In this document: piece by piece, positions 17,419 to 27,872 of the stretch | Layout: each line of letters starts with the position of its first letter | How positions within the stretch are numbered: position 1 is the first letter of the stretch | Assembly (NCBI GenBank): GCA_937124965.1 | Contig: CAKZLB010000049.1 | Coordinates: forward strand, 1-64,000 | Length of the DNA: 64,000 nucleotides | Direction: 5' to 3' | DNA from: an uncultured Bacteroidota bacterium | Lineage (GTDB): Bacteria > Bacteroidota > Bacteroidia > NS11-12g > UBA9320 | The notes under the pieces: model-generated | What the model was told of the DNA's origin: nothing | Database searches by the model: none | Seen by the model: only the letters and a program-made list of their open reading frames with translations | Position numbers and translations under genes: made by a program

Positions 17419-18018
17419 ATGATACACTCTATTCAACAAGAAATTGAAAACAAAATCAAATCGTTAAAAAGAGGGAGCATCCTATTCCCGTCGACATTTG
17501 ACGACTTAGGCAATGTTGAAGTAATAAAAAAGTCATTATTACGATTAACGAATAAGAAGTTCTTAGTTAGACTGGCACATGGTATTTATTTATATCCCAA
17601 ACAAGACCCTGTCTTAGGTAATTTATATCCCACAATAGAAGATGTCGCTGCGGCAATAGCAGATCGCGATAAAGCTCGAATTATTCCAACTGGAACGACT
17701 GCCCTTAATAAACTGGGCTTGTCGACTCAAGTTCCAATGAATATTGTATTCTTAACAGACGGAGCCTCCAGAAGTATTGTCGTAGGAAAAAGGACTATAA
17801 AATTTAAGCGGACAACGCCGAAAAACTTAGCCGTAAAAGGAAAAGTCAGTAGTTTGGTGGTTCAAGCTCTAAAAGAAATAGGAAAAGATAACGCCACAGA
17901 TGAGCAATTAAAACTCATTCGCAAGCACCTTAGGTTTGAAAAAAGAGAGAATTTACAACATGATGCAAAGTTGGCTCCGGCTTGGATAGCCAAAATTATT
18001 AAGAGTATTATTCAATGA
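17419..18018 (+). CDS. abiEi: AbiEi-like antitoxin / DUF6088 protein
   Basis: A 199-residue protein. Residues about 10-60 form a winged helix (RGSILFPSTFDDLG, then LVRLAHGIYLYPK, the typical antitoxin wing). The C-terminal domain runs from about 65, with IIPTGTTALNKLGLSTQVP. It is the antitoxin of a type IV system in which toxin and antitoxin do not bind each other, and it should also autoregulate. Its stop overlaps the start of the toxin gene (ATGA), so the two are translationally coupled. Confidence 0.9.
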   Translation: MIHSIQQEIENKIKSLKRGSILFPSTFDDLGNVEVIKKSLLRLTNKKFLVRLAHGIYLYPKQDPVLGNLYPTIEDVAAAIADRDKARIIPTGTTALNKLGLSTQVPMNIVFLTDGASRSIVVGKRTIKFKRTTPKNLAVKGKVSSLVVQALKEIGKDNATDEQLKLIRKHLRFEKRENLQHDAKLAPAWIAKIIKSIIQ

Positions 18019-19007
18019 AAAACTTTATCGAACTTAGTGAAACTGATAAATTAAATGTCTTCAATCAAACCAGTGAGCGTGCAGGGTTACCGACTTCTGC
18101 GATTGAAAAAGATTGGTGGGTAACATTGGCTTTGCATGTTATATTTTCGTTACCCTATGCAGACAAATTGGTCTTTAAAGGGGGAACTTCATTAAGTAAA
18201 GCTTGGAACTTAATCGAACGATTTTCGGAAGATATTGATTTAGCAATAGACCGACAACATCTTGGTTTTAAAGGCAAACTGAGTAAAACACAAGTTGGAA
18301 AATTGAGAAAAGCATCGTGTTCATTTATTGGAAATGACTTTTATAATGATCTCATTACCCAACTGACAAGACTAGGTATAAAAAATCATGAACTAGTTGT
18401 TCAAGAAACAGCAAACACTGACACTGATCCTTTGGTTATTGAATTAAGATACAAGTCAATAACGGAAGAGTCTGAATATTTAAGACCTAAGGTTTTGATA
18501 GAAGTTGGAGCCAGATCCTTAATGGTGCCAACAGATAATAAACCAATTCGATCTATGGTTTCTAGTCAATTCAGTGATTTACCATTTGCAGATAAAGAAA
18601 TAACAATTCCGGTAGTGTCACCAAAGCGAACATTTTTGGAAAAAATATTTTTGTTGCATGAAGAGTTTCAAAAAGAAACAAAATTTATTCGGGTAGAAAG
18701 AATGAGTCGTCATCTTTATGATTTAGAAAAGCTCATGGATACAAGTCACGGTACTGATGCACTGAACGATTTGGATTTATACAACACAATTGTATCGCAT
18801 AGAATGCATTTTAATGCAATACGAGGAATTGATTACTCAAACCATTCCCCTCGTTCCATCAATATTGTTCCCTCAGATGAAACAGTTAAGAATTGGGAAA
18901 AAGATTATAAAACCATGCAAGAAAGTATGTTTTATGGTTCTACATTAAGTTTTAAAAAACTAATGCTCCGTATAACTCAATTGAATGAGCGGATAAATGA
19001 ACAATAG
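18015..19007 (+). CDS. abiEii: AbiEii-like nucleotidyltransferase toxin
   Basis: A 330-residue protein of the DNA polymerase beta-like nucleotidyltransferase superfamily. Motif I is LVFKGGTSLSKAW (about residues 54-66) and the acidic pair is FSEDIDLAID (about 72-81), both standard for AbiEii/MenT toxins. A further basic VSPKRTFLEKIFLLHEE stretch is also family-typical. Such toxins modify tRNA or other RNA and cause phage-induced growth arrest. The stop codon (19005-19007) lies inside the duplicated arsR sequence, so the last residues may have been set by the insertion junction. Confidence 0.92.
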   Translation: MKNFIELSETDKLNVFNQTSERAGLPTSAIEKDWWVTLALHVIFSLPYADKLVFKGGTSLSKAWNLIERFSEDIDLAIDRQHLGFKGKLSKTQVGKLRKASCSFIGNDFYNDLITQLTRLGIKNHELVVQETANTDTDPLVIELRYKSITEESEYLRPKVLIEVGARSLMVPTDNKPIRSMVSSQFSDLPFADKEITIPVVSPKRTFLEKIFLLHEEFQKETKFIRVERMSRHLYDLEKLMDTSHGTDALNDLDLYNTIVSHRMHFNAIRGIDYSNHSPRSINIVPSDETVKNWEKDYKTMQESMFYGSTLSFKKLMLRITQLNERINEQ

Positions 19008-19319: not shown

Positions 19320-19521
19320 AGATTGGTTGGGTGCGAGTTAGTTATACCCATATTCTACACATGTTGAATAAACCTCAAATTGCTTGTTTATTTTTGGGGG
19401 ATAAGCACAAGTAACTATGACAAACCGAAAGTTAACCTTTTCATTTAACCTTGGAATGAGGTTGTTTATCAGTAATTTTCAGTCGGATAGTCTTTAGTTT
19501 AGGCGCAATTTGAAGAAAACT

Positions 19522-20238
19522 ATGACCAAAAAGGAACAGATTGACAATAACAGACAAGACCTAATTGCGGCAATTGGAAAATCTATTGTTGGAGCTATTC
19601 CATTTGCAGGGCCCTTGTTAACCGAGATAATAGGAGCTGTTATTCCTAATCAAAGAGTTGACAGACTTACTAAGTACATAAAAACACTTGAAGACAAGAT
19701 TTCCCAAATTCCGAAAGACACGATTGAAAACTTAAAAGAAAATGAACACTTCATTGATCTTGTGGAAGAAGGATTTGTGCAGGCTTCTCGAGCTATAACT
19801 GATGAAAGAAGAAACTATATTGCTTCAATTTTAGCAAATGGAATAACAGATGATTCAATTGCGATAGAAGAATCCAAGTCTTTATTAAAGATTTTACAGG
19901 AACTGAATGATGTGGAAATTATTTGGTTAAGATTTTATCAAGTCTCAACAATTAATGGTGATGAAGAATTTAGAAAGCAGCATGAAAACGTATTAACACC
20001 AATTAGAGCCTACATGGAGGCTGACAAGGAGACGTTGCAAAAAGCTGCTCTTCAAGATAACTACAAAAAACACCTTGAAAGACTTGGACTAATCAAAAAC
20101 CATATAAGAACTGACTCAAAAACAAATATGCCTGAATTTGATAGATTTACGGGACAACCAAAAGTCTCTTATTCAGACATTACCCAACTCGGAAAAATGC
20201 TTTTAGAGCAGATAGGAATGGCCGGAGAAAATGAATAG
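19522..20238 (+). CDS. Accessory protein with amphipathic N-terminal GxxPFAGP segment (cassette 1)
   Basis: A 238-residue protein, taking ATG 19522 over an in-frame TTG at 19510. Residues about 15-45 form a glycine-rich hydrophobic stretch (SIVGAIPFAGPLLTEIIGAV) that could enter a membrane, then a coiled-coil region (LTKYIKTLEDKISQ), helices, and a C-terminal winged-helix-like part (LERLGLIKNHIRT). No named family is assigned. The combination of a possible pore segment with a soluble sensor-like region is common among defence and toxin effectors, but the role is inferred only. It is followed by attC-like site 1. Confidence 0.6.
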   Translation: MTKKEQIDNNRQDLIAAIGKSIVGAIPFAGPLLTEIIGAVIPNQRVDRLTKYIKTLEDKISQIPKDTIENLKENEHFIDLVEEGFVQASRAITDERRNYIASILANGITDDSIAIEESKSLLKILQELNDVEIIWLRFYQVSTINGDEEFRKQHENVLTPIRAYMEADKETLQKAALQDNYKKHLERLGLIKNHIRTDSKTNMPEFDRFTGQPKVSYSDITQLGKMLLEQIGMAGENE

Positions 20239-20245
20239 AAACTGC

Positions 20246-20375
20246 GCCTAACAATACATATAGCTTATGGCGGGTGAACGGCTTCCAGCAAGGTTTTCGC
20301 TCCGTAGCCAGCTTTGGTTTCGGTGGACAGGAAAGTGCTTCTAAACCGCCACAAGCTAAATGCAAACCGTTGTGC
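20246..20375 (+). other. attC-like site 1 (130 bp, long type)
   Basis: Starts with GCCTAAC (consensus RYYYAAC) at 20246-20252 and ends with GTTGTGC (consensus GTTRRRY, one mismatch) at 20369-20375. Inside, TAGCTTATGGCGG on the left is complemented by CCGCCACAAGCTA on the right. It is the same length and closely related in sequence to site 3 and related to site 10. The 5' end of its cassette, TTAGGCGCA at 19499-19507, is the exact complement of TGCGCCTAA at the cassette's 3' end. Confidence 0.72.
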
Positions 20376-20400
20376 GTGATTTGAAAAAACAATACAGTTA

Positions 20401-22317
20401 ATGAATCGAATTATTTCACATGAGCTTTCAAAATTTGGAAAAATTGATATCGCACTGCATGCGAAATCGACTGTTTTCTATAATCAGCTTGAAGCTGATG
20501 GACTCATTGACTATTTAAAAAACCTTGACCACCTTGGGTTTATTTCAAAATCCAATCCCGGAAATAACCATAAGCGTTGGGATTATGTAATGCTTCAATT
20601 CTATGTTCTACACAAACTAAAAGATGAAGTATTCAGAACAGGACTAAGCAGTAGTCATAGAATTGATAATCATAATCAGACTTCAGGATTAGTCATTTTA
20701 CAAATCGCTATCCTTTTCGCGAACATTGGTCATTTGAAAGGGACGTTATCTTCGGAAATTGCGTTGTTAAATTTTTTTGAAAACAATGGTCAACAAAAAA
20801 ATGAGTTCTTCAGTGAAATTGATAATTCACCAAGATGGAGGCCATTTGCTGAGAATATTCTGAACACAAAGGATTACTACAAAGTAAAATATCTCGTAGC
20901 CTTAAACTATTTGTTAAAAAACAATAACGACCCTTTAGTAGAAGAAATAATCTATTCATTTTTCAAAAATTCACTGATAGATGATGATCCAAAACTCCGA
21001 AAGCTTAAATGGATATTTCATAAAGTAAGGCAAATCAGTTTTGTTTATTTAGACAGCTTTAATAGTGACTTTCCCTTTCTCATAGATATTACCAAAATCC
21101 TCCTAAATACGGGAAATTATAAACCAGTATTCAATCCAAATTCTTTCGATTTCGAAGGATTCTATGATGCTGCTGAAACGACTTTGACTAAAAAGCTTTA
21201 TATATCTGAGTACGCCTCTAAGCTTTTGGAACACAACAAATTGACTTTTGCTGATTTTTTAAATAGAGAAATTTTAAGAACAGGGAATAACAAATTAGTT
21301 TTTGAAAATTTCGTTTGTAGCTTATATAGTAGGAATGTCAAGGCATTTGAAATAACAAATCCTCCCGAACAAATTTGTTTACAATTCTACTTATCAAAAG
21401 AAGACATAGAGTTCTTTGGTGTAAAACAAGAGTTGTTCAACTATCAAAATGCGATTCTTTCCAATTATCAAAGAGAAGCCGGACTAAACACTCTATTAAA
21501 CCGAAATCTGACCCACAAGAACCATAGAGTTTCTTTAATTCATGATGGTCGTAAATCAATATTTTTTAATAACCTAATAATTAGAAAAGATGAGTTATTG
21601 GAATCCGATCAAAGTCAATTTCTACTCAATTACTTCATACTACACAAAAAATATCTAGAAATATTTGAATACATAGGGCCGATACAAAACTTGAAGACAA
21701 TAGCGACAACATTTTTGGTAAAACACTATTCAAGAAAAGTCTTTTTACAAGTGTGTAAAGTTCTTTTTGATTTTGAACATAAACTAAGTGCCTATATCAA
21801 ATTTGATAATCAGCAACTGATTCATGAATTAACTAAAGTAAATCCTTCATTTTCGCCTACGGGATTTATTAAATCCAAACCAAATCTTATTGAATTAATA
21901 AATGGTTACTTAAACCTACCCAGCATACCAAATGACATTAAAAATAACTTTGGAATAGCTAAACACATTGTAGAGAATGTCACAGGAGTTAAGAGATATT
22001 TTAACGCATTTTTTTGCTTATTCCCAATTGAGCTTGACAAATACAACTTAGACCCTACAAAACTATATTTACAACAAAACCCTGAAACCGTAAAAACCAT
22101 TACTGATATTGACTTTCTTCTCGTGCTCTTTAATGAAAGTAACTTTGAGTTTTACATAATCGAAGGGAAAGATCAGGATAATGGGTTCGAAAGAGCGGTA
22201 AGAGACGATTTTAATAATCGAATTATACCTAATTTGAGATTCTCAAACTCCGTGTCGGCAATTCAGATTGTAAACCTTCCTCAAGCAAAAGGTGGATATG
22301 TAACAATAAAAAATTAA
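20401..22317 (+). CDS. Large cassette-borne protein: HD-like N-terminus, PD-(D/E)XK-like C-terminus (cassette 2)
   Basis: A 638-residue protein of no recognised family. Residues about 55-111 suggest a degenerate HD hydrolase core: NNHKRWDYVML supplies a histidine, but the expected HD pair reads AN in FANIGH. The middle is helical. The C-terminus has a nuclease-like pattern: acidic DID at 569-571, a hydrophobic strand, then YIIEGKD (Glu588 and Lys590) followed by a helix, as in PD-(D/E)XK enzymes. It sits alone between attC-like sites 1 and 2. A defence or DNA-processing role is inferred from the C-terminal motif. Very long for an integron cassette gene. Confidence 0.62.
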   Translation: MNRIISHELSKFGKIDIALHAKSTVFYNQLEADGLIDYLKNLDHLGFISKSNPGNNHKRWDYVMLQFYVLHKLKDEVFRTGLSSSHRIDNHNQTSGLVILQIAILFANIGHLKGTLSSEIALLNFFENNGQQKNEFFSEIDNSPRWRPFAENILNTKDYYKVKYLVALNYLLKNNNDPLVEEIIYSFFKNSLIDDDPKLRKLKWIFHKVRQISFVYLDSFNSDFPFLIDITKILLNTGNYKPVFNPNSFDFEGFYDAAETTLTKKLYISEYASKLLEHNKLTFADFLNREILRTGNNKLVFENFVCSLYSRNVKAFEITNPPEQICLQFYLSKEDIEFFGVKQELFNYQNAILSNYQREAGLNTLLNRNLTHKNHRVSLIHDGRKSIFFNNLIIRKDELLESDQSQFLLNYFILHKKYLEIFEYIGPIQNLKTIATTFLVKHYSRKVFLQVCKVLFDFEHKLSAYIKFDNQQLIHELTKVNPSFSPTGFIKSKPNLIELINGYLNLPSIPNDIKNNFGIAKHIVENVTGVKRYFNAFFCLFPIELDKYNLDPTKLYLQQNPETVKTITDIDFLLVLFNESNFEFYIIEGKDQDNGFERAVRDDFNNRIIPNLRFSNSVSAIQIVNLPQAKGGYVTIKN

Positions 22318-22328
22318 AGAAAAACCAC

Positions 22329-22388
22329 TTACAACATTGTATTTAGTGCATGCCCTGCGGGATACGCACCATATGCGAGACGTTAGCT
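22329..22388 (+). other. attC-like site 2 (60 bp, short type)
   Basis: Left core TTACAAC at 22329-22335, right core GTTAGCT at 22382-22388. The middle folds as GTGCATGCCC against GGGATACGCAC. The left arm CACTTACAAC complements the start of its own cassette, GTTGTGCGTG (20369-20378), at 8 of 10 positions. Confidence 0.68.
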
Positions 22389-22395
22389 AGAACCT

Positions 22396-23355
22396 ATGAC
22401 GACATACCAAGACATATCAACCATAACAAATAATGCATATAGACTTGCCGACCTTATCACTGGTGGGCACTATAGCAACATTTTGTATTATGAATTTCAC
22501 GAAGTAGTAGACCCAACAGGAATTTTTAATTGCTTAGAGGGTTTGAAAGCGTTTTCAGAACGTTCAGAAGACTTTTATAAAATATTTCTTTCATATGGTT
22601 TTGTTGACGAAGAACCTGCAATCATACACGTTGCAGTTAAGTTAGCAAACGACTGGTTTATTGCTCACGACTGCGGTTCTAACTATTATCTTGGTTATGG
22701 ACCGACTGGTATATTAAAACTTCGAGAAGCTTGTGCGAGCAAGAATATTGCTGGTTTTATAAGTGACGACAAATTTGAAAAATGGCTAAAACTAAAATTT
22801 GGAAGTCCGAAAAAGCAATTAAAATCGGATAAAAAAAGCATAGAACAACTTCAATTTAAGAGGTTAATTAAATCGATTCAATTTTTGACAAATGACATGC
22901 AAAGAAGACCTGAAGAATATCAGGGATTAAATGAGGAAAGTATTCGTAACCGCATGTTGTTACCAATAAACGTAACCTTTAAAGGACGAGGAAATGCGGA
23001 AGCTAAAAATTGCAAAGGAAAAACGGACATACTAGTTAAGACAAAAGATGGTTTAAACGAACATATTTTTGAATTAAAAGTATGGGACGGAATTGACACA
23101 CTTACAAAGGCAATTAAGCAATTGCGAGGCTATTTAAGTTGGCACAACAACTTCTGTGGTATTATTATGATCTGTTACAAATCTGACTTTACAAGTATCT
23201 TAAAAAAAGCTGAGAAACATTTGACAGACAATTTCAACTTTGACAACAGAGAAAGGTATATACGAAACGAATTTCGCTTTAAGCTTCATCATCCAACAGA
23301 CAAATTCAAACATATTGAAACACATTTGACATTTATAAATCTTAAAACAACTTGA
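22396..23355 (+). CDS. Cassette-borne PD-(D/E)XK nuclease-like protein (cassette 3)
   Basis: A 319-residue protein. The C-terminal half has a clear PD-(D/E)XK layout: a helix with EESIRNRMLLP (about 180-190), GKTDI with Asp211, then HIFELKVWDG with Glu226-x-Lys228, and a following QLRGY that matches the QxxxY motif of Cas4/RecB-type nucleases (Gln242, Tyr246). The N-terminal half (1-150) is alpha/beta and unrecognised. Probably a DNA-cutting accessory or defence protein. It starts 8 bp after attC-like site 2, and its cassette ends match perfectly (GTTAGCT and AGCTAAC). Confidence 0.7.
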   Translation: MTTYQDISTITNNAYRLADLITGGHYSNILYYEFHEVVDPTGIFNCLEGLKAFSERSEDFYKIFLSYGFVDEEPAIIHVAVKLANDWFIAHDCGSNYYLGYGPTGILKLREACASKNIAGFISDDKFEKWLKLKFGSPKKQLKSDKKSIEQLQFKRLIKSIQFLTNDMQRRPEEYQGLNEESIRNRMLLPINVTFKGRGNAEAKNCKGKTDILVKTKDGLNEHIFELKVWDGIDTLTKAIKQLRGYLSWHNNFCGIIMICYKSDFTSILKKAEKHLTDNFNFDNRERYIRNEFRFKLHHPTDKFKHIETHLTFINLKTT

Positions 23356-23374
23356 CGAAAGAACGAAAGGTAAC

Positions 23375-23504
23375 AGCTAACACGGCATATATCTTATGGC
23401 GGGTAAACGCCTGCCAAGAAGATTTTCGCTTTTTAGCTAGCTTTGGTTTGGGTGGACAGGTAAGTACTTCGAAACCGACACGAGCCTTAGCCAAACCGTT
23501 GTGT
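23375..23504 (+). other. attC-like site 3 (130 bp, long type)
   Basis: Left core AGCTAAC at 23375-23381, right core GTTGTGT at 23498-23504. It shares with site 1 the blocks CTTATGGCGGGT, TTTTCGCT, GCTTTGGTTT, GGTGGACAGG and CAAACCGTTGTG and has the same total length. Left core and the start of its own cassette (22382-22388) are perfectly complementary over 7 bases. Confidence 0.75.
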
Positions 23505-23525
23505 ACTATACTAAAGAATTAATAA

Positions 23526-24107
23526 ATGGTGCAAGTTTTCCTGATTTTAACCAAATTTATGGTCGCCGGAATATTCTCGATGGTGTCTATCATATTTCTT
23601 ATTTCTACTATCATAAAATGGAAAAAGAAAAACAGCTTCAGATTGTCTTTTGGTCTATTTATGGCTTTTGGATTATTTGCACTACTGACTTTTAATATTG
23701 ACTTGACTTCGGCAGAATTTACAACAAGAGAGGACTCTATTGGAGCATTCAAGGATAATTTTGGATTTGAACCGCCCGAAACAGTTGAAAATATAAAACA
23801 TAAGAACTTCGCTTTATATGATGCTTCAGCTCATTGGATGTCATTCACTTACGATTCAATTGTTTTTGAAAAAATTCGTCTCCAAGATCAGCCGCTGTCA
23901 ATTGCCGATCCCAATACAAATGAACATTCCCAAATAATTAATGAGTTTAGCCGTGAGAACCCGAATGCCCCTGAATGGTGGATATCACCAACTTCAATTA
24001 CAGGTACAATCTATTATAAAAAAGATTTTTTAAACCACACTTTTAGCGAATACTATTTATATCGGTCAGGGGACATGATTCATCTGATGGTTCATTATTT
24101 TGATTAA
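23526..24107 (+). CDS. Two-helix membrane protein, unknown (cassette 4)
   Basis: A 193-residue protein with two hydrophobic segments (about residues 3-27 and 39-57) and a soluble C-terminal domain from about 62 with GFEPPETVENI and a hydrophobic end (YLYRSGDMIHLMVHYFD). The start could also be Met12 or Met19. Its cassette ends match: GTTGTGTACTATA at 23498 against TACAGTATACAAC at 24108-24120 (11 of 13). No family is recognised. Confidence 0.6.
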   Translation: MVQVFLILTKFMVAGIFSMVSIIFLISTIIKWKKKNSFRLSFGLFMAFGLFALLTFNIDLTSAEFTTREDSIGAFKDNFGFEPPETVENIKHKNFALYDASAHWMSFTYDSIVFEKIRLQDQPLSIADPNTNEHSQIINEFSRENPNAPEWWISPTSITGTIYYKKDFLNHTFSEYYLYRSGDMIHLMVHYFD

Positions 24108-24113
24108 TACAGT

Positions 24114-24198
24114 ATACAACAACGCCTATGACCAATGCTTACCTTCAGCAATCAAAAAATGTTAATGCGTTAGCCAATGTAATATGGCTATGTTGTAA
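24114..24198 (+). other. attC-like site 4 (85 bp)
   Basis: Left core ATACAAC ending at 24120, right core GTTGTAA at 24192-24198. The left part ACAACAACGCCTATGACC pairs imperfectly with the right part ATATGGCTATGTTGT. Confidence 0.62.
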
Positions 24199-24210
24199 CT
24201 TAGCTTCCTT

Positions 24211-24348
24211 ATGAAAATCCAACTAATAAACCCCGCTCTGCTCATAGCCAAACAAATTCAAACAAATCTCTCAAAGAATACCAAAAAACTACCAAAGCTC
24301 ACAAGTTCATTTCATTGGGTTACGAGGATGTTTTCAACAGGTTGCTAA
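24211..24348 (+). CDS. Possible 45-residue peptide in cassette 5
   Basis: ATG at 24211 opens a frame of 45 codons ending TAA at 24348, beginning MKIQLINPALLIAKQ and basic overall. It starts 13 bp after attC-like site 4, the usual place for a cassette gene, but the coding potential is weak and the cassette may carry no functional gene. Confidence 0.25.
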   Translation: MKIQLINPALLIAKQIQTNLSKNTKKLPKLTSSFHWVTRMFSTGC

Positions 24349-24413
24349 ATCTTTAATTGTGATAGATTATTTTTGATGGAAGTAGTACAATCAACTTGAT
24401 TATAACCGAATAA
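24328..24413 (+). repeat. Leader repeat, copy 1
   Basis: Begins ATGTTTTCAACAG and ends ACCGAATAA. It aligns over its whole length to 25072-25154, sharing GATTATTTTTG (which contains TATTTTTG, a -7 box), TGGAA, TAG, ACAA and CAAC blocks. Here it is not followed directly by a gene. Confidence 0.7.
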
Positions 24414-24484
24414 AACCAATGTCTACAATCACCCTTTACAGAGTAGTTAACAGAATGTTTTGTTCTGATAGGTTTTAGTTGTAA
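24400..24484 (+). other. attC-like site 5 (degenerate, tentative)
   Basis: Right core GTTGTAA at 24478-24484 is supported because it complements the far end of cassette 6. The left core TTATAAC (24400-24406) is only a guess. ATAAAACC and GGTTTTAGTT could pair inside. Confidence 0.4.
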
Positions 24485-24489
24485 AACGT

Positions 24490-24978
24490 ATGAAAATCGC
24501 AATAAAGATAATTTTTACAATAGCAATTGCTGGACTGTTTCAGCAATGCAATTTGATCACCTCTAAAAAACATGATCGAATTTTAAAATATTACTCAAAA
24601 GATAAACCAACTACAGAATTAAAATTTGAGTTAACAATTACTAAAATTGACAGTGGTTATAGTTATAAATACTCCGACCCTTTGCGTGAAGAACCAAGTT
24701 TTGAGTACATAAAATCTGGAGAATTTATATATGATGGTGGAATAAAATTTGAAACAATAAAATTTGGAGACTACAACTTTAAAAAAGACAACGAAAACGA
24801 GTTTGATCTATATATTGCCGTTGGGAATTATTTGGATGGACCTGGACCACTTCTGTTTAACGACAAATATGGAGTTCTAAACGCTTCAAATGCTTGGGGC
24901 AATAATGTTCTCTTTACACCTGAAAAAGGAAAATCTATAATTGAACGAATGGTCCTGAAAAACATTAAAAACAAATAA
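24490..24978 (+). CDS. Exported protein or lipoprotein, unknown (cassette 6)
   Basis: A 162-residue protein with a signal sequence (residues 3-18) ending GLFQQC. Cys20 may be lipidated although the preceding residues are not a classical lipobox. The mature part is charged and beta-rich (KFELTITKIDSGYSYKY). Its cassette ends match: GTTGTAAAACGTAT at 24478 against ATACGTACTTCAAC at 24978-24991 (11 of 14). The stop codon lies inside the cassette end. No family is recognised. Confidence 0.6.
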   Translation: MKIAIKIIFTIAIAGLFQQCNLITSKKHDRILKYYSKDKPTTELKFELTITKIDSGYSYKYSDPLREEPSFEYIKSGEFIYDGGIKFETIKFGDYNFKKDNENEFDLYIAVGNYLDGPGPLLFNDKYGVLNASNAWGNNVLFTPEKGKSIIERMVLKNIKNK

Positions 24979-24984
24979 TACGTA

Positions 24985-25064
24985 CTTCAACATTGGGTAT
25001 AAGTCATAGCCGCACAAAGCCTGCGCACCTTCCAAGCTACGCCTCGTACCCGTTACCGTTAGAT
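24985..25064 (+). other. attC-like site 6 (80 bp)
   Basis: Left core CTTCAAC at 24985-24991. The right core is either GTTAGAT at 25058-25064, a perfect GTTRRRY, or GTTACCG six bases earlier, which fits the related site 9 better. The arm CAACATTGGGTA pairs with TACCCGTTACCGTT. It shares CACAAAGCCTGCGCACCTTC-type sequence with site 9. Confidence 0.6.
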
Positions 25065-25071
25065 TACTAGT

Positions 25072-25154
25072 ATGTTTTCAACAGAAGACTACATCTTAGA
25101 TGGTGATCGATTATTTTTGGTGGAAATAGAACAAACAACGTTAGAAACCGAATA
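25072..25154 (+). repeat. Leader repeat, copy 2, upstream of the gene at 25155
   Basis: Homologous to 24328-24413. It abuts the ATG of the gene at 25155 and contains TATTTTTG, so it is probably a mobile cassette promoter or leader. Confidence 0.7.
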
Positions 25155-25970
25155 ATGAAAAAAATATTTTTTATTACCCTTACGACTAGTTTCGCTGTCT
25201 TCTGTCGGGGAGAAGTGAATTTAAGCACAAAAGCCTCATGTAATTCAATCATCTGGTTGAATCAGAGTTCGACTCAGTGTTTTATGTCTACAAGTTCAGA
25301 AAAGCATATTTATTTCAATAGCAACGTACTGAATGGTATAAATGAATCCTCCGATGCTATTTCAAGCACACATCTGTTAAATGGTAATCACCTTTTTTCT
25401 GAATTAACATTTAAACCAAAAAGAACCTTTCTAAAAACTGGGGAATTAACTACGAAATCAGATCATTCCATCTTTTTGGAAATAGGCGGAAGCTCACCTT
25501 TTTTTTCAGTAAATTATGAATACAACATAGCAACATTATCGAAGGGCTCAATTGTTTCTAGCATCGGTATTCATCATCCTGCCGGAATATCAATAGAAGA
25601 CAGAGGAGTGATACAATCTAATGGAACGATCAAACGAAAACGTGTACTTACCGATGTCATTATTCCATTTCGCCTAAGCTGGATATCGCATAACGGACGT
25701 AAACATCACGCTGAGATTGGTGTAGGATTGACCTATTACACCATACCGTTCGTTGTACGATCTTACGATATGGTTAAACCAATATACTTCGGAAAAAACA
25801 GGGGCAATCGAGGCATTTTTTTTATTCCAACTACAGGATACAGATTTACCGCATCCAATGGGACTATCGTCCGACTAACATTAACCCCGTACATAAATCA
25901 ATATACCGATCCTATCGTGCAACTTTATGGAGGAGTTTCTTTTGGCTATCAATTTCGTAAAAAAACCTAA
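25155..25970 (+). CDS. Predicted outer-membrane beta-barrel protein (cassette 7)
   Basis: A 271-residue protein with a signal peptide (residues 1-16). From about residue 95 it has alternating strands with GGSSPFFSVNYEYNIA, SSIGIHHPAG, HAEIGVGLTYYTIP and a C-terminal strand YGGVSFGYQFRKKT, typical of small eight- to ten-stranded barrels. Its function is unknown. The attC-like site expected downstream is interrupted by a MITE-like element. Confidence 0.62.
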   Translation: MKKIFFITLTTSFAVFCRGEVNLSTKASCNSIIWLNQSSTQCFMSTSSEKHIYFNSNVLNGINESSDAISSTHLLNGNHLFSELTFKPKRTFLKTGELTTKSDHSIFLEIGGSSPFFSVNYEYNIATLSKGSIVSSIGIHHPAGISIEDRGVIQSNGTIKRKRVLTDVIIPFRLSWISHNGRKHHAEIGVGLTYYTIPFVVRSYDMVKPIYFGKNRGNRGIFFIPTTGYRFTASNGTIVRLTLTPYINQYTDPIVQLYGGVSFGYQFRKKT

Positions 25971-26023
25971 AAGGAAGTTTGTATTAAAAAGCTTCTCTCA
26001 CTGTGGCCATTGCTTTAGACATA

Positions 26024-26036
26024 GGCGATAACTAAC
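26024..26036 (+). other. Left half of disrupted attC-like site 7
   Basis: GGCGATAAC (26024-26032) or AACTAAC (26030-26036) is the candidate left core. The MITE-like element begins at 26037. The matching right half, CCCGTTTGCAG with the core G at 26539, appears about 500 bp later, after the element and the transposase remnant. Confidence 0.42.
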
Positions 26037-26292
26037 AACCTGAGTTCGATTATTATTTATGGTTTAGACCGCTTGGAAATAGTGATTGTCAACTAAAATT
26101 TATGCAGTAATAGCGGGCTATTTCAAATAATTTTTAGGAAGAGAAGCGCTTTTTCCTAGTGAAATAAGTATGTGTTGTTCCATAAAACCCAATATACTTC
26201 GTTGGATTTAATCCGCTAAATCTTCACAAAACCGCCTTGTCTATTGACTTTTATGAAATTCTAAACCTATGAAGAAGAATCGAACTCAGGTT
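26037..26292. mobile_element. MITE-like element, copy B (256 bp)
   Basis: Same terminal inverted repeats as copy A (AACCTGAGTTCGATT and AATCGAACTCAGGTT). Almost identical to copy A at both ends, but the middle 182 bp between GGATTT and CGCTAAATCTTC are missing. It lies inside attC-like site 7 and directly abuts the IS1182-type remnant. Confidence 0.82.
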
Positions 26293-26549
26293 TAAACAAT
26301 AAAGCACGACTTTACCAAAACAAAACACTTAACTCCCAAGGAAACCTGCCCTATCATCCATCGGAATTACTCAAACTCTATTTGTATAGATATCAAAGTG
26401 GTGTTCGAAGTAGTCCTAAACTGGCACATTGTTGTCGAACCAATGTTGAAGTGATGTGGCTTTTAGGAGGACTACACCCGCAAACCACTTTTATGCTATT
26501 TTCGAATAAACTAAAAAATGGTTGTTGCACAGACTCCCGTTTGCAGTAA
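26289..26549 (+). pseudogene. Fragment of an IS1182-family transposase
   Basis: One frame reads LPYHPSELLKLYLYRYQSG and then SSPKLAHCCRTNVEVMWLLG (26346-26489), the conserved N-terminal signature of IS1182-type DDE transposases (YHPxxLLKLYLYGY, SSRKLE, NVExMWLLGG). Nothing before 26346 matches, nor does the sequence after GLHPQTT. The catalytic part is gone. The frame runs into the cassette boundary at 26539 and stops at 26549. Confidence 0.82.
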
Positions 26550-26560
26550 TTGACAGATAA

Positions 26561-27169
26561 ATGGAATTCAAATACTACGTATATCTTATTGGTGGTGTTC
26601 TCATCGTGTTAATGGCGATATACACACTCTTGACTTACATATTCCCATCAATAAGTCTTAATAAACAGGTCATAGATGTTGAATTTTCGGAGACTCTTGT
26701 AATCCCTGAATTTGCAGAATTAGGCGAATTTACATACAGTAATTATGACGAAAAGTTACTAAATGAAATTGTTATTCCATTTTGGAAGGATTTTAAAGTT
26801 GACCTAGATGATGAGGCTTCCGAATTTGAGTTAAATTTTGATTCGAATGATAAAAAAATAAATGACCAACAAAGAGCAGGATACAAATCAATTGTTAATT
26901 ATTCAGGTCATGACTGGCAGAATATTCTTATTGAAATCTTGGTGTATTACAGAGAACTCTATTCGGACTATTAAGAATTTGATGCCCCTATTATTAAAAA
27001 CACTGAAGATTTGAGAAGATCAATCGAACTTAATAGTATATCCATTCATCGATCAGGCATCGTTGGCATGTCGTTCAATTGCACTTGGGATGAAGAACAT
27101 GGCCTGGGAGTAAGAATTGATAAAAACAAAAATATTAATGTTGGCGGAGCATCAGAGGCATATTATTAA
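26561..27169 (+). pseudogene. DUF6985-like membrane-anchored protein broken by an in-frame stop (cassette 8)
   Basis: The frame from ATG 26561 codes 137 residues (one membrane segment at about 5-28, then an acidic soluble domain) and stops at TAA 26972-26974. The same frame then stays open for 64 more codons and gives a typical family ending: GIVGMSFNCTWDEEHGLGV, then INVGGASEAYY and TAA at 27167-27169. The whole gene would be 202 residues. A single nonsense change therefore splits it. Cassette ends match: GTTTGCAGTA at 26539 against TACTGCTATC at 27174-27183 (8 of 10). Confidence 0.78.
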
Positions 27170-27176
27170 AAGATAC

Positions 27177-27291
27177 TGCTATCGTCCGCTACGCATAGCT
27201 CGCGTTTTCGTCACGCGAAATCAATCATGGGTTAACAAATCAATTCTTATCTTCGGGGCAAACAACTTTGGTAGTAATCCGCACGTTGTGT
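27177..27291 (+). other. attC-like site 8 (115 bp)
   Basis: Left core TGCTATC at 27177-27183, right core GTTGTGT at 27285-27291, the same right core as site 3. Outer arms (CTATCGTCCGCTACG and GTAGTAATCCGCACG) pair imperfectly; CGCGTTTTCGTCACGCG forms an internal hairpin. Confidence 0.5.
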
Positions 27292-27296
27292 AGCTG

Positions 27297-27872
27297 ATGA
27301 CCATTAGTCAAAATTTAAAAAGAATGACATCAATATACTGCTCAAATAAACTAGAAAAACTAATTGGCACCGCGCTTTTTGAATCCAATGACGAGTCGTA
27401 CGAATCCGATTTTGGTGATTGGTTTGCTCATTATAAATCCTTCAGAAGAAAGAAGTGCCTTTTTCTGATTCATGTTCCTACATATTACACCATTGTATTT
27501 GCCGATTTCAAGAAAAAAGACATTGTGAATCTCCAAAATGACTTTTACCAATTGTTGGAATCAAGACTCATTAATGACTTGATTATCAAAAGCAATCATA
27601 ACCTGGATTTAGGAAAGTTGATCGGTGGCATCAATTTCCATAAATCCAACAACGACAAAAAAACCATAGCCACGCTGAATCAACGGATTTATGACTTTGA
27701 AATTCATCTTGACTGGCATAACTTATCCTTCGAGGAAAAAGACATGTTATATATGAATGCCTTGCTCAATAAGAGTTTGAGTAAATCTAGGTATGGCAAA
27801 AGAAATGACTATATAAACCCTGTAACGGAAATGAAAGAGAAAATTAAAAATTACACCCAACAAAACAAATAA
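27297..27872 (+). CDS. DUF6933-family protein (cassette 9)
   Basis: A 191-residue protein, or 182 from Met10 (MTSIYCSNKL, ATG 27324), which fits the family better. It has the DUF6933 features YCSNKLEKLIG, KCLFLIHVPTYYTIVFADFKKKD and a C-terminal NDKKTIATLNQRIYDFE. The role is unknown; relatives are scattered in accessory DNA. It starts 5 bp after attC-like site 8. No matching right cassette end was found. Confidence 0.72.
   Translation: MTISQNLKRMTSIYCSNKLEKLIGTALFESNDESYESDFGDWFAHYKSFRRKKCLFLIHVPTYYTIVFADFKKKDIVNLQNDFYQLLESRLINDLIIKSNHNLDLGKLIGGINFHKSNNDKKTIATLNQRIYDFEIHLDWHNLSFEEKDMLYMNALLNKSLSKSRYGKRNDYINPVTEMKEKIKNYTQQNK

Follow-up and report, generated by a model that had tools for sequence, protein, structure and literature searches.

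An eroded, integrase-less cassette array in a Bacteroidota genome and its probable kinship with a chromosomal integron headed by a XerA-like recombinase

It is very probable that the gene-bearing segments described below are integron cassettes, that a XerA-like recombinase heading an array on another contig (C13) of the same genome acts on attC and attI sites of their kind, and that the array in the window (the whole 64-kb stretch of DNA that was analysed, contig C49 of a 4.09-Mb genome in 79 contigs) is an older one that has no integrase. More broadly, the Bacteroidota probably hold a widespread, separate integron lineage with XerA-like integrases that lack the IntI-specific domain and attC sites that lack extrahelical bases. 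The features of the window array are as follows, where CM R1 is an attC covariance model (CM) and own ends are scored as the number of complementary bases between the start and end of the same cassette.

19483-19499, + strand: left boundary resembling a degenerate attI, TCGGATAGTCTTTAGTT, suggestive only
19499-20252, + strand: cassette 1, ORF 19510-20238, own ends 7/7
20242-20378, + strand: attC site 1, CM R1 75.9 bits, in the training set
20369-22335, + strand: cassette 2, 638-aa ORF 20401-22317, own ends 5/7
22325-22391, + strand: attC site 2, short type, CM R1 29.1 bits, E 1.4e-5, in the training set
22382-23381, + strand: cassette 3, 319-aa ORF 22396-23355, own ends 4/7
23371-23507, + strand: attC site 3, CM R1 65.9 bits, in the training set
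23498-24120, + strand: cassette 4, ORF 23526-24107, own ends 6/7
24110-24264, + strand: attC site 4, CM R1 19.6 bits, E 0.006, outside the training set
24478-24991, + strand: cassette 5, lipoprotein-like ORF 24490-24978, own ends 4/7
24981-25067, + strand: attC site 5, CM R1 56.5 bits, in the training set
25058-25970, + strand: remnant of cassette 6, ORF 25155-25970, with attC site 5 ending at its left core
26037-26292, no strand: inverted repeat, 29-nt arms (83% complementary) around about 200 nt
26539-27183, + strand: cassette 7-like segment, ORF 26561-26974, own ends 6/7

The sequence-only reading had proposed that in six segments the start and end of the same segment are complementary while adjacent segments are not, as in integron cassettes, and that own pairs should outscore swapped ones; the core words it quoted for all six lie where it placed them. 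When end pairing was scored at positions 4-10, excluding the near-invariant GTT/AAC, the six cassettes gave 7, 5, 4, 6, 4 and 6 of 7 in order, and the own pairs proved the best of all 720 pairings, with a mean of 5.33/7 versus 1.80/7 for swapped pairs, and the five junctions between adjacent segments matched little (3, 0, 2, 4 and 0 of 7). The true order was reached by 137 of 100,000 random permutations, as 1/720 predicts, and a p of about 0.0014 is as strong a result as the six cassettes of the window alone can give. The same shuffled-pairing check was passed by a far wider margin elsewhere in the genome, where 20 cassettes outside the window scored 6.65/7 with their own ends versus 2.46 when swapped (0 of 100,000 permutations) and 57 cassettes scored 6.07/7 against a permuted mean of 2.61 and maximum of 3.54 (20,000 permutations), most of the 57 having a perfect own pair over ten bases. 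That such pairing is a known property of integron cassettes also holds, given that an exact 10-base own pair is found in the classical sat2 cassette of an E. coli plasmid that also bears dfrA1 and aadA1. The interpretation of the window segments as integron cassettes is thus supported by the own-versus-swapped tests. Within the six, the left end of cassette 1, GTTTAGGCGCA, has one T beyond what its own right end predicts, and the pair at 26539 and 27174 is the weakest, its right core reading ATC instead of AAC; no attC model match was obtained for this pair in the covariance model search of the window. The segment from 25058 to 26539 has a good left core and IS-like debris inside, and no right end matching that core was seen.

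The window array, with five CM hits and no integrase nearby, counts as a CALIN, a cluster of attC sites lacking an integron integrase (two or more sites with none close by), and is read as an eroded, CALIN-like satellite of a large chromosomal integron, older and decaying, because no trace of an integrase was found in the 64-kb window by tblastn, pairing is weaker, the right core of attC site 4 is lost (AAACAAAT in place of the expected GTT) and the array is interrupted by the inverted repeat at 26037-26292 and by downstream debris, which we take to be IS1182-like. Of the cassette genes, ORF 19510-20238 encodes an Abi_alpha-like protein (Pfam PF14337, E 1.7e-5, sub-threshold) and ORF 22396-23355 a PDC-S54 candidate defence protein (PADLOC PDLC05036, E 4e-35), while the 638-aa ORF of cassette 2 was assigned to no family by Pfam or PADLOC. 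Homologues of attC site 1 occur on contigs C44, C36 and C49, and no Rfam match was obtained in the window. The array is directly preceded by an AbiEi/AbiEii type toxin-antitoxin pair (17419-19007) and directly followed by a DUF6933 protein (27297-27872) that matches the PADLOC candidate PDC-S63. A dispersed repeat of about 90 nt, about 77% identical, lies upstream of cassette genes at 24322-24412 and 25066-25154 and also occurs on contig C16 (G000:C16:299472 and 301412).

How the window array originated is a question within this reading. The attI-like match at its left boundary hints that the array may once have been complete, and it could then have been an independent integron that lost its integrase rather than a set of main-array cassettes that spilled over into a secondary site. 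The pattern TCGNATAN6AGTT, derived from the attI-like sites of the own C13 array and of genomes G004 and G002, occurs 13 times in the 4.09-Mb genome, once exactly at the expected boundary (19483). The match is partial, however (TCGNATA and AGTT, not AAAC), and the window carries no integrase trace, so that an independent origin is to be regarded as possible, if somewhat doubtful.

The genome as a whole contains a large chromosomal integron with about 60-70 attC sites. A CM built from 27 sites gave 75 hits, mostly on array contigs: arrays are located on C44, C15, C9, C64 and C8, at the 3' end of C13, at the end of C72 and at the start of C59, and C44 is filled with attC sites of this type, which are also found at contig ends. 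The assembly breaks at these repeats, and it is through shared attC types that C44, C15, C9, C64, C8 and C72 are linked to the array head on C13. The cassettes stand in tandem; each has a complementary start and end, and each is closed by an imperfectly palindromic attC whose arms covary. The clearest case is a family of ORF-less cassettes about 285 nt long, whose 13 homologous members have five different end arms (GTTAGGCGGC, GTTACAGCAC, GTTACATGGC, GTTGTAGGGC and GTTATAGCAC), in which the far end is altered to match each time: pairs 4-9 have changed on both sides in a compensatory manner, with 0 broken pairs. Ends hundreds of bases apart thus change together, as expected if they are joined in an excised circle.

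The 285-nt family (L020:5145-5428 and 12 copies on C44, C15, C9, C64 and C72, 70-99% identical) has two near-invariant internal helices, GCTGGCC/GGCCAGC and GCCGAGC/GCTCGGC, and possibly represents a structured RNA; no Rfam match was found for it, the Rfam scan of the arrays returned only a tRNA, and an ORF-less cassette searched against a phage collection gave no match. A second ORF-less cassette, of 130 nt (L019:18593-18722), has ten further copies on C44, C15, C9, C64 and C8 that are 91-100% identical, one copy being the first cassette after attI and three standing in tandem on C15, and its end mismatches are bottom-strand wobbles. By analogy with the promoter cassette reported for Vibrio (PMC11014356), it may be a promoter cassette. 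Lone attC sites distant from the arrays were observed on C74, C67 and C13 (position 87314), and another (G000:C36:1894-2030, L021) beside a protein gene that appears TIR-like by eye.

The attC sites differ from the classical type in that their R cores keep only GTTR/YAAC and not GTTRRRY/RYYYAAC; among 20 distinct R' cores a single one conforms to GTTRRRY, and all retain GTTR. In the own-genome sites, judged by pairing only, the L arms align over 15+15 bases with no bulge, and extrahelical bases were not seen in them. Imperfections in the L arms comprise 66 A.C against 7 G.T, an excess that favours the bottom strand, since A.C becomes a T.G wobble on that strand only, and DNA folding energies make the bottom strand the stabler in 24 of 28 sites, although p-values for this strand bias overstate independence because the sites are related. 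This asymmetry and the folding energies are consistent with recombination of the bottom strand, as far as sequence can indicate. IntI recombines the folded bottom strand of attC (PMC8946536, PMC3053210), and the alpha-I2 helix of IntIA contacts an extrahelical base in trans (PMC3053210). The absent extrahelical base is in keeping with the absence of the IntI helix described below, and the two may be linked.

The C13 array is headed by a 395-aa tyrosine recombinase (G000:C13:654319-655506, L019 17320-18507), which is followed in a single direction by a stretch of about 85 nt that contains an attI-like site and then by cassettes. Its catalytic residues are complete (R, K, HxxR, H, Y). It scores 235.7 against the XerA-like model NF040815 (cut-off 220), whose NCBI product name is 'site-specific tyrosine recombinase/integron integrase', and 196 bits against the IntI model TIGR02249, under the cut-off of 265. 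Compared with 2A3V and IntI1, it lacks the IntI-specific insert, about 42 aa around patch III, as do all aligned relatives, whereas IntI1 and the IntIs found in other genomes of this phylum have the insert. The C13-type integrase also carries an N-terminal extension of about 70-110 aa, which has no Pfam match and for which folding in isolation produced a poor model (pLDDT 59). In a tree that leaves the root and the precise sister group uncertain, IntI is monophyletic (100/100) and the C13 integrase family falls outside it. Separate genes for a XerC-like and a XerD-like protein are also found in the genome. An integrase of the same genus (L052 13065-14200, genome G004) has HxxH for HxxR, yet has attI and cassettes; to judge from this substitution, it may be inactive. 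Relatives of the integrase core also occur in viral contigs (L207-L286), in most of which the N-terminal part was not matched.

This arrangement recurs in other Bacteroidota. Members of the C13-type integrase family occur in 28 of the 108 genomes from the order, and at most tested order-level loci a conserved attI-like site, roughly TATAAACNA|GTTR, is located 3' of the stop codon of the integrase gene; many genomes have a G|TT site within about 200 nt past that stop, and a cassette follows the attI-like site downstream of most family members. An exact 10-base own pair in the first cassette was found at 10 of 26 order loci (against a mean of 0.46 and a maximum of 3 for control words) and at 17 of 37 loci in the collection of named genomes (control mean 0.79, maximum 4); exact words were used because a test allowing one mismatch gave 17/26 against a control mean of 10.8, which is too high. 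Own pairs of nine or ten bases occur, among others, in Algoriphagus ornithinivorans, Cyclobacterium, Winogradskyella, Seonamhaeicola, Flavobacterium aciduliphilum, Aquiflexum, Rufibacter and Pontibacter. The first cassette encodes an NB-ARC/TPR protein in Algoriphagus (L127 7108-9822) and a cytosine methylase with a HaeII-type endonuclease in F. aciduliphilum (L142 7131-9306), and a Chryseobacterium oryzae plasmid carries the integrase, attI and one cassette-like unit with a VOC-family gene and an imperfect right end. Among 58 genomes, 15 had both integrase and attC, 6 and 8 had one only and 29 neither (p 3e-4, the genomes being related to one another); thus some genomes have CM hits and no C13-type integrase, or the reverse. 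At most loci the integrase is directed into the array and not divergent from it as in classical integrons; a divergent arrangement is found in G030.

Given that canonical IntI scores above cut-off in 105 of the 395 genomes sampled from the phylum and that the own assembly is split into 79 contigs, the arrays might instead have been built by a canonical IntI, either missing from the assembly or recently lost, with the XerA-like gene a chance neighbour. This is highly unlikely for several reasons: the own genome, rated 100% complete, has no canonical IntI above cut-off; only G094 among the genomes listed with IntI belongs to the own class; the XerA-like gene, attI and first cassette recur together in many Bacteroidota; and the attC cores misfit the IntI consensus. 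The separate proposition that canonical IntI is absent from the phylum was rejected, since it is common in other classes. Finally, the idea that these are ordinary genes between dispersed, REP/BIME-like palindromic repeats with ends that match by chance draws on the commonness of palindromic intergenic repeats and on the dispersed repeat in the window, but has next to nothing left to recommend it, being refuted by the own-versus-swapped tests and the compensatory end changes and failing to predict cassette-specific complementarity of ends 0.13-2 kb apart, compensatory end variation or the single orientation shared by 30 of 32 coding cassettes.

It is therefore the integron reading, with a XerA-like integrase, that is preferred here. 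In this model, the start and end of each cassette would be the R' and R'' halves of one attC, joined in the excised circle; the C13 recombinase would bind the folded bottom strand of attC, exchange one strand at G|TT with attI and so insert cassettes beside the 3' end of its own gene, and the window would hold an older, integrase-less array of C13-type cassettes. That a C13-type enzyme carries out cassette recombination is what we infer.

Integron integrases are by general agreement recognized by the IntI-specific insert, on which the standard search tool also relies (PMC9668308, PMC9024848); by this criterion IntegronFinder 2.0 found just a single complete integron among the Bacteroidetes, that of Salinibacter (PMC9024848). 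IntI-based tools would miss Bacteroidota integrons of the C13 type, of which no earlier description was found in the open-access papers that the search covered. If the present reading is true, environmental Bacteroidota harbour a large pool of mobile cassettes, including restriction-modification and NB-ARC genes in first position and one case on a plasmid, that has been classed as integrase-less or overlooked, and single-strand cassette recombination either can do without the IntI-specific domain or arose repeatedly. How a folded strand is recognized and polarity set with neither the IntI helix nor extrahelical bases thereby becomes a testable mechanistic question.

In comparison with known systems, the Bacteroidota arrays resemble IntI integrons (sedentary chromosomal ones, such as the Vibrio superintegron) in having an integrase, attI, tandem cassettes and palindromic attC sites, and they share with the Vibrio-type superintegron the own-end complementarity, the bottom-strand bias, the dozens of cassettes and the many ORF-less and toxin-antitoxin-like cassettes. 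They differ from IntI integrons in that the integrase has the N-terminal extension and no IntI-specific insert, in that the array lies 3' of the integrase and co-directional with it, and in the reduced R cores and unbulged L arms. The window array is like a CALIN in having several attC sites with no integrase nearby and unlike one in that these sites are of the Bacteroidota type. The C13 recombinase resembles XerA/XerC-like recombinases (NF040815) in scoring above their cut-off, with a catalytic fold that a relative shares, but unlike XerA/XerC it has the N-terminal extension, adjoins attI and an attC array, and gives no hint of a role in chromosome dimer resolution. The model of an Algoriphagus relative finds its best structural match in IntIA of Vibrio cholerae on VCR (PDB 2A3V), followed by XerA, and it is from this IntIA that the C13-type integrase departs in the loss of the residues around patch III.
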